Below are positions 6,538 to 8,733 of a stretch of 44,198 nt of DNA, piece by piece. Every line of letters starts with the position of its first letter. Positions within the stretch are counted from its first letter, which is position 1. Made by a program: the position numbers and the translations under genes. This DNA comes from a virus: the IMG/VR virus record IMGVR_UViG_3300020222_001393, positions 1 to 44,198 of that record. One strand, given 5' to 3'. Under the pieces are notes generated by a model. That model was not told the DNA's origin. It searched no databases and saw only the letters and a list, made by a program, of their open reading frames with translations.

Positions 6538-7257
6538 TCATATATCTTCCACTTTAATAATGTCCTTATATCTTTTTGATTTTCCACAACTAACTAATCT
6601 AACAGATGATTTAGGATAACCATTCTTTTTACAAAATTGTGGAATGGTATCTATAAAAGTTCTTCCATCTAATAGAGTAAATTTGTAAACCTTAGCTTGT
6701 TTTCTAAGTTTATTTCTTGTCTCTTCTGTAACAACTCTACCCTTATTTCTTTCACTTATCTTTTTGCGATGTTCTTCTGACTTAGGGACTCCCTTGTGTG
6801 TTTCGCTTATTTTCTTTCTATTTTCTTCAGTATGAGTTTTACCATACATAGGATTTTTTTCTTTTATAAATCTACCTTTCATAACTTGTCTTTGCTTCTC
6901 TCTTGTTTCTTCCGAAGGAGAAACACCGTAAAGAGGATGCTTTTCACCCATTCGGGATAATGCTATTTTTTTACGTTGTTCTGGAGTAGGTTTATATCCC
7001 ACTGGACCTTCTCCACCATCACTCAGATTTCTTAATATTCCAGTATTTAAATCTTTTCTGCCGAACATTAAAATATAAAGTTTCTCCAACTCATATGACT
7101 CCACTTCACTTAAGTTAGATTTGAGTATATGAATTCTTGATTTATCTTTAGGTGCTTTAATCCTATGATTAGCATAGGCATATGCTCTCCCCTTAGTTCC
7201 TTTTCCAATATAATATGGACTATAATCTTCCCGTAAATACGAGTAAACGTAATACAT
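6538..7257 (-). CDS. GIY-YIG homing endonuclease with NUMOD3 repeats
   Basis: About 239 residues from the ATG at 7257. The N-terminus YYVYSYLRED..PYYIGKGTKGRAY is the GIY-YIG nuclease core, with the first motif degenerate (YVY) and YIG intact. The central part has repeated NUMOD3 DNA-binding motifs (KKIALSRMGEKHPLYG, KNPMYGKTHTEE, EEHRKKISERNKG), and the C-terminus resembles a NUMOD1/helix-turn-helix unit (IPQFCKKNGYPKSSVR). This architecture matches free-standing phage homing endonucleases of the Seg/I-TevI group. A TTG 18 bases upstream could extend the frame but lies upstream of the predicted late start, so the ATG is preferred. The gene sits between a fibre gene and the oxygenase cassette. 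Confidence 0.85.
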   Translation of the reverse strand: MYYVYSYLREDYSPYYIGKGTKGRAYAYANHRIKAPKDKSRIHILKSNLSEVESYELEKLYILMFGRKDLNTGILRNLSDGGEGPVGYKPTPEQRKKIALSRMGEKHPLYGVSPSEETREKQRQVMKGRFIKEKNPMYGKTHTEENRKKISETHKGVPKSEEHRKKISERNKGRVVTEETRNKLRKQAKVYKFTLLDGRTFIDTIPQFCKKNGYPKSSVRLVSCGKSKRYKDIIKVEDI

Positions 7258-7278
7258 TTCTATAGTTGGGTGCAATAA

Positions 7279-7286
7279 TATTTATA
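7279..7286 (-). promoter_or_regulatory. Late promoter TATAAATA of the GIY-YIG gene
   Basis: Exact T4-type late promoter box 21 bases upstream of the ATG at 7257, within the loop of the 7264-7339 inverted repeat. Start of RNA expected near 7273. Confidence 0.7.
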
Positions 7287-7310
7287 CAAGAAAAGGAGCA
7301 TCTCTGCTCC
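7287..7310 (-). terminator. Rho-independent terminator of the oxygenase cassette
   Basis: Minus-strand stem GGAGCA / TGCTCC (7295-7310) followed by TTTTCTTG. It lies 47 bases after the stop of the oxygenase at 7357. Confidence 0.75.
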
Positions 7311-7356
7311 CTCTCTACCTGTGAAGATTGCACCCAACTCAGGCATCACTATTTAG

Positions 7357-8031
7357 TTATCGTGCCATATCGTTAGCACAGTGAGCTCTTAGACCATCTC
7401 TTAACACGTAGTGCATAAAAACTTGATGGTAGTAAAATTCTTTCATACCCAACCATTTACGAATCTTATTTCTTCTTTTCCCTGGCATAGGATCTCTCCA
7501 GTGACAAAGTTCACACCCTTTGTACAATAGACCATCACCAGGATTTAAAAATACTTCTTTCTCATTACCCTCCACATCAATCAATTTAAATCCCCATTTA
7601 TCCTTAAGATTGGTTCCAATATGAATACTCACTGAAATCTCACAAGAATCACGATCTGCGTGTTTCTTTAATTCCATAGAGGAAAAATAGTAACGATCGT
7701 AATAATATGTGGTAGAAAGTGGTTTTCCTATAATATTCTCAAGCCTCTTTTTTACTTTAAAGTATGCCTCTTTATATGGAGGATAATAATACCTTGCAAG
7801 AGAACCTTCTACTTGCATTTCTACAGGACTGTATGAGTATTTCTCAAGTTTCCCATAGTAGTTGAGTTGTCCTCTAACTTCAGGTACTTCACAATAAAGT
7901 TCCTTTGGATCAATAAGATCTCTAATCACCAAATATCCTTGTTTCTCAAAGATATTATTATCTGTCTTTGCTGTTCCACGATTGACCTTAACTTGCCAGT
8001 CAATCTGTTCTTGTGTCATTCCTTCTGCCAT
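7357..8031 (-). CDS. 2OG-Fe(II) oxygenase-like protein
   Basis: A 224-residue protein with a double-stranded beta-helix pattern. The likely iron ligands are H124 and D126 in LKKHADRDSC and H177 in GCELCHWRDP, preceded by the NPGDGLLYKG turn typical of viral and bacterial 2OG-Fe(II) dioxygenases. Such enzymes hydroxylate proteins, nucleic acids or small molecules; the substrate cannot be inferred. The arginine that would bind 2-oxoglutarate may be R211 in YVLRDG (uncertain). Ribosome site GAGGTGA precedes the ATG. It is the second gene of a two-oxygenase operon ended by the terminator at 7287-7310. Confidence 0.75.
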   Translation of the reverse strand: MAEGMTQEQIDWQVKVNRGTAKTDNNIFEKQGYLVIRDLIDPKELYCEVPEVRGQLNYYGKLEKYSYSPVEMQVEGSLARYYYPPYKEAYFKVKKRLENIIGKPLSTTYYYDRYYFSSMELKKHADRDSCEISVSIHIGTNLKDKWGFKLIDVEGNEKEVFLNPGDGLLYKGCELCHWRDPMPGKRRNKIRKWLGMKEFYYHQVFMHYVLRDGLRAHCANDMAR

Positions 8032-8704: not shown

Positions 8705-8733
8705 ATTATATATCAGTTTGGTTTTGATGTCAA
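8705..8733 (-). promoter_or_regulatory. Consensus sigma70 promoter of oxygenase operon
   Basis: Minus strand TTGACA (8728-8733), exactly 17 bases, then TATAAT (8705-8710): a full match to the bacterial housekeeping promoter. It starts immediately after the U-tract of the terminator at 8735-8760, separating the early-type oxygenase genes from late structural genes. Confidence 0.85.

Follow-up and report, generated by a model that had tools for sequence, protein, structure and literature searches.

A candidate same-strand antisense RNA and leader lock in front of endonuclease genes of T4-like cyanophages

What is controlled by a long, perfect inverted repeat that lies directly in front of a mobile endonuclease gene and encloses both a terminator and a late promoter? 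The window analyzed here, that is, the whole stretch of 44,198 nucleotides of the IMG/VR virus record IMGVR_UViG_3300020222_001393, carries such an arrangement on its minus strand, and a sequence-only reading had interpreted it as a timing switch of the I-TevI type. All elements named in that reading are found, yet its list was incomplete, as it missed an upstream late-promoter motif (P1, ACTAAATA) and a short stem, CCTG/CAGG (stem A). In what follows, we refer to the unit that starts with P1 as the module, and summarize its parts in Table 1.

Anatomy of the module

The 13-bp perfect repeat is the longest close inverted repeat of the window. Its arms are complementary at 13/13 positions and both are unique in the window, and 0.1 such repeats with a gap of at most 60 are expected per shuffled 44 kb. 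As had been claimed, it surrounds the terminator and the late promoter P2, and the end of its 3' arm is separated from the endonuclease ATG (7257-7255) by exactly six bases. Read from the stop codon of the upstream gene, which is overlapped by the P1 motif, the order on the minus strand is TAA CTAAATA GTGAT G CCTG AGTTGGGTGCAAT CTTCA CAGG T AGAGAGGGAGCA GAGA TGCTCCTTTTCT TG TATAAATA TTATT GCACCCAACT ATAGAA ATG. Folding, which had been put forward as a check of the leader, bears the proposed structure out: 7345-7215 gives -46.8 kcal/mol (z = -5.7), with both stems contained in the minimum free energy structure.

Table 1. Features of the module and its surroundings in the window
Feature	Position	Strand	Basis or remark
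P1, upstream late-promoter motif ACTAAATA	7350..7357 (core 7350-7355)	-	left edge of the module; predicted start G7344
Predicted P1 RNA, ~55 nt, two hairpins (5' seed-loop and terminator)	7289..7344	-	prediction
Stem A, 5' strand CCTG	7340..7343	-	covariation, 66 modules with distinct arms
Stem A, 3' strand CAGG	7318..7321	-	covariation, 66 modules with distinct arms
5' arm AGTTGGGTGCAAT, loop of stem A, putative seed; complement of the mRNA leader	7327..7339	-	
Intrinsic terminator, inner hairpin and T-run	7289..7316	-	fold; T-run counts over 59 modules
P2, predicted late promoter TATAAATA of the endonuclease mRNA	7279..7286	-	predicted start G7273 (T4 spacing)
3' arm ATTGCACCCAACT	7264..7276	-	late mRNA leader predicted to begin within it, at G7273
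Perfect sigma-70 promoter TTGACA-17-TATAAT, upstream of the module	8705..8733	-	possible source of early read-through RNA
GIY-YIG endonuclease ORF with NUMOD3 motifs, 239 aa	6538..7257	-	ATG at 7257

The inner hairpin is clear in the fold (7316-7305 paired with 7300-7289, loop GAGA). A consensus terminator scan of the window did not list it, probably because its T-run lies partly within the extended stem. Across modules, at least 5 T within 8 nt follow in 54/59 cases, a good T-run being absent in a few. The predicted P1 RNA folds with -25.0 kcal/mol in the window, and the family as a whole is more stable than shuffled sequences (mean z of -3.9 over 66 modules).

As for the promoters, T4 late promoters carry TATAAATA at -13 to -6 (PMC1524935), and the same rule places the start of the late RNA at G7273, in agreement with the start near 7273 that had been predicted. 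A purine stands 6 positions past the last A of the motif in 57/59 modules for P1 and in 58/59 for P2, and P1 has T at -1 in most modules. Given this fixed spacing, the predicted +1 falls on the start of stem A in the case of P1 and on the start of the 3' arm in the case of P2. The base preceding the TAAATA of P1 is A in 136 and C in 57 of the 193 modules, and never G or T, which resembles the virion late promoters of Synechococcus phage S-SRM01 (A 15, C 4), but not the complete set of TAAATA in the same genome (A 98, T 86, G 62, C 28). Further upstream nothing is conserved in the 193 modules, and we therefore take P1 to be the left edge of the module. Between P1 and stem A, the modules keep a constant distance. 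On a related note, one record (G003, the record of L072) has two modules, at 51855 and 67057, with identical arms and bodies and different 4-nt spacers after P1, and this difference suggests that the conserved unit may begin at the predicted P1 transcription start.

RNA entering the module from further upstream may have an early origin as well: read-through RNA from the sigma-70 promoter at 8733-8705 is plausible, judging from the sequence. The gene immediately upstream of the module (7357-8031) matches PHROG families named ferrochelatase and has no Pfam match; it adjoins a 2OG-Fe(II) oxygenase, and its name may be wrong.

Recurrence and covariation

The sequence-only reading had raised the prospect of the same arrangement in other cyanophages, and the fetched loci, 3.35 Mb in all, indeed yield ~190 distinct modules, placed upstream of endonucleases that belong to several families, as against 7 in a reversed-sequence control. 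The first loci were fetched by similarity to the endonuclease protein, and therefore represent a sample without bias for the leader: 11/19 of them (L001-L010, L019) have the same arrangement, with arms that differ and yet remain complementary. Scanning everything that had been fetched yielded 59 good modules, and two further pattern scans brought the number to 199 candidates, 193 with an ORF. The loci in this collection are fragments, and were partly picked by P2/terminator patterns, which contain neither P1 nor the arms. What is more, the promoter-pair pattern alone returns 57 modules in 31/39 whole records, and 0 when written backwards, while the pattern TTTTTARTATAAATA was too loose for use alone. 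The modules are found mostly in IMG/VR contigs, and in addition in T4-like cyanophage isolates, namely Synechococcus phages S-SRM01, whose complete genome has six, B23 and S-B68, as well as, in more divergent form, in MA01 and S-CREM2. BLAST searches of annotated phages with two modules as queries returned S-SRM01 and short pieces only, which we ascribe to the divergence of arms and hairpins. No Rfam 15 family scored above threshold for the module, and our literature search found no paper describing it.

For the analysis of covariation, we used 66 modules with distinct arms, picked by promoter motifs only and with no requirement on the arms, because selection by paired arms would have been circular for stem B, that is, for the pairing of the arms with each other. 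In this set, own arms pair over at least 8 positions in 97% of modules and swapped arms in 4.5%, and in stem A GCTT occurs with AAGC in 17/24 modules versus 0/42 of the others and CCTG with CAGG in 26/33 versus 2/33. Because the modules share ancestry, these counts should not be read as independent, although every distinct pair of arms represents a compensated change. In other words, the arm sequences differ almost everywhere among modules, while their complementarity is kept, G-U pairs included. The duplex predicted between the P1 RNA and the leader has a mean of -20.7 kcal/mol for own and -9.5 kcal/mol for swapped partners (66 modules); in the window, the duplex with the translation-start region has -21.3 kcal/mol. 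Finally, the complementarity has a sharp border. Counted along the P2 mRNA, the arms pair in 100% of modules from +1 to +7, in 89% at -1 and in 36% at -2, and the complementarity of the P1 RNA to the late mRNA is high until about +12 and at chance level at -2. Such a sharp start at +1 is expected if the target is an mRNA begun at P2.

A combined model and its alternatives

The model that we favor, with somewhat better than even confidence, is that the module joins a same-strand antisense RNA to a cis lock on read-through RNA. Namely, P2 would make an endonuclease mRNA that begins at 7273, inside the 3' arm, and has an open leader, while P1 would make an RNA of ~55 nt from 7344, with the 5' arm exposed in the loop of a small hairpin and with its end at the terminator, ahead of P2. 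This short RNA would pair with the P2 mRNA over its initial ~12 nt, directly ahead of the start codon, and block its translation, the outcome being low endonuclease expression although both promoters are late. RNA that comes from upstream, or runs past the terminator, would carry both arms and lock its own start region. At the level of sequence, the combined model has support in the anatomy, the recurrence in ~190 places, the covariation of both stems and the fixed spacing of the promoter motifs; transcription from P1, the existence of the short RNA and its action in trans we infer.

The two halves of the model do not stand equally firm. The cis lock is the safer one, and we consider it highly probable: the I-TevI-type lock of the sequence-only reading is upheld by covariation and by folds in which the read-through leader is closed and the late one open, even though it turns out to be only half of the module. 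Action of the P1 RNA in trans is, in our judgment, close to evenly balanced, leaning slightly in its favor. We would hold as evenly poised the more general proposition that endonuclease cassettes of T4-like cyanophages harbor same-strand antisense RNAs that are widespread and form an undescribed class, in which the P1 RNA would repress in trans an endonuclease mRNA whose promoter, P2, lies a few dozen bases downstream, resulting in copy-number-dependent self-restraint like that of IS10, but built from one inverted repeat. That said, the complementarity is short (~12 bp, as against 35 for RNA-OUT). As for arms within one genome, all six are different in S-SRM01 and they are identical twice in G003, which are too few pairs for a conclusion.

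Could the cis lock be all there is? If so, upstream RNA would either terminate or hide the start, only the P2 RNA would be translated and the P1 RNA would have no role in trans. The design is known from I-TevI, SegB and MobE (PMC2988022), stem B covaries, the predicted unpaired fraction of the leader is 0.24 in read-through RNA and 0.68 in late RNA (66 modules), and the same phages have simpler relatives without P1 and terminator (L047, L054, L064, L079). However, a lock in cis leaves unexplained why P1 is conserved together with its late-promoter flanking base, and why a covarying stem A is found at the predicted 5' end of the P1 RNA. Nor does it explain why complementarity stops so abruptly at the P2 start, since pairing further upstream would be tolerated, if not required, by such a lock. 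For these reasons, we regard the cis lock alone as a serious but clearly less likely explanation than the combined model.

It could further be argued that P1 is a leftover native late promoter and that the terminator serves the upstream gene, the endonuclease needing P2 and the arms only. P1 does mark the left border of what is conserved, and in comparisons with empty sites it is absent from some empty relatives and coincident with a native motif in others. In particular, the empty relatives of L400 and L391 have TCTAAATAA in the same place, and this coincidence of P1 with the native late-promoter motif (L400/L331, L391/L331), which also speaks against the combined model, means that P1 could be partly inherited from the insertion site. 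This reading is nevertheless improbable, as there is no TAAATA at the empty-site junction in L008/L035, L069/L277, L092/L267 and L395/L380, nor in the duplicated native flank of L010, and P1 keeps its constant distance from stem A. Least likely is a DNA-level element, either an operator for autorepression by the endonuclease or a homing or insertion signal: although I-TevI binds an operator overlapping its own late promoter, the module stands before endonucleases of unrelated families, and its arms vary freely while RNA pairing persists, G-U pairs included.

Relation to known systems, downstream genes and mobility

In I-TevI, I-TevII, I-TevIII, T4 SegB and Aeh1 MobE, RNA initiated upstream has its start region covered by a stem, and transcripts from a late promoter inside lack the 5' arm; we predict the same for the module. 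Here as there, the gene encodes a homing endonuclease, and SegB and MobE are free-standing ones. Accordingly, a start-covering stem, an in-loop late promoter and a downstream homing endonuclease are all present in our sequence. The use of this design by a free-standing endonuclease is not in itself new, as the late-promoter/hairpin lock had already been described for free-standing segB and mobE (review PMC2988022). What the cyanophage module adds to these systems is an in-loop terminator, a second, upstream late-promoter motif and a covarying stem showing the 5' arm in a loop; unlike them, it is one common module before several nuclease families. As a separate observation, the simpler locks (L047, L054, L064, L079) have a long arm reaching or nearing the ATG, with the late promoter inside, and share a small loop hairpin like CTTGCGTAAGTCCC.

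For the antisense half, the closest parallel in function is RNA-OUT of IS10, an opposite-strand RNA with 35-nt pairing (PMC5006887). Like it, the candidate P1 RNA of the module is short, structured and complementary to the 5' end of the mRNA of a mobile element, including its translation start region. Unlike RNA-OUT of IS10/Tn10, it would come from the same strand, from an inverted repeat, with ~12 bp of pairing and with both promoters being late phage promoters; thus, it would work like RNA-OUT but is not a member of that group, P1 and P2 lying on the same strand. Transcripts entering IS10 from outside fold their own start away, as the read-through RNA of the module would. The nearest same-strand case is the c4 antisense RNA of phages P1, P7 and P22, which lies upstream of its target, pairs near the ribosome binding site and is processed from a shared transcript, whereas the cyanophage module has a separate promoter motif and a terminator.

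Turning to the genes behind the module, the endonuclease of the window matches NUMOD3 in Pfam (E 4.8e-21) and phrog_314, homing endonuclease, in PHROGs, and the Pfam search of this protein reported no GIY-YIG domain. In an alignment of 17 relatives, Y-x-Y...YYIGKG, R24, E58 and N77 are invariant, and we take the conserved Arg, Glu and Asn to be the GIY-YIG catalytic core. Judged by start motif, ~160 of the 193 downstream ORFs are GIY-YIG-like, in four sequence types, two of which have no Pfam match and are so labeled by motif alone, ~17 are HNH and a few are others. Pfam and PHROGs confirmed NUMOD3, GIY-YIG, HNH, HNH_3 and Endo VII-like genes, and gave a weak hint of PD-(D/E)XK. In S-SRM01, all six modules precede nuclease or nuclease-like genes, among them a gene at 56059 whose annotation is only hypothetical and whose start, YIYKIIFEEVPYYYYG, is GIY-YIG-like.

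One RNA control module is, in other words, common to mobile endonucleases that are not otherwise related (GIY-YIG, HNH, Endo VII-like and possibly PD-(D/E)XK). This suggests that selfish genes carry the leader along with them or exchange it among each other. The module offers a testable case of how such genes limit their own harm in a promoter-sharing virus, and its hundreds of natural arm variants are a ready set of matched antisense pairs. A self-made small blocking RNA, if real, would be a new way of self-restraint for selfish genes. What is more, should the P1 RNA act in trans, mutual silencing of relatives within one cell would become possible and, if true, would bear on marker exclusion and phage-phage competition.

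The endonuclease cassettes occupy different sites, empty counterparts of which are found, and one is flanked by a direct duplication: in L010 (IMGVR_UViG_3300020603_001302), a 53-bp direct repeat (CACCATTAAATTACATTAGAG...CCAAACTGAATA) lies on both sides of the cassette, at ~180-240 and after 930. With its native-looking downstream copy, this repeat is a sign of recent insertion with a long target duplication. In L002-L010, the genes on the left side are unrelated, and most cassettes lie directly before the early promoter of one and the same 2OG-oxygenase gene; the equivalent site in the window (~8740) is empty.
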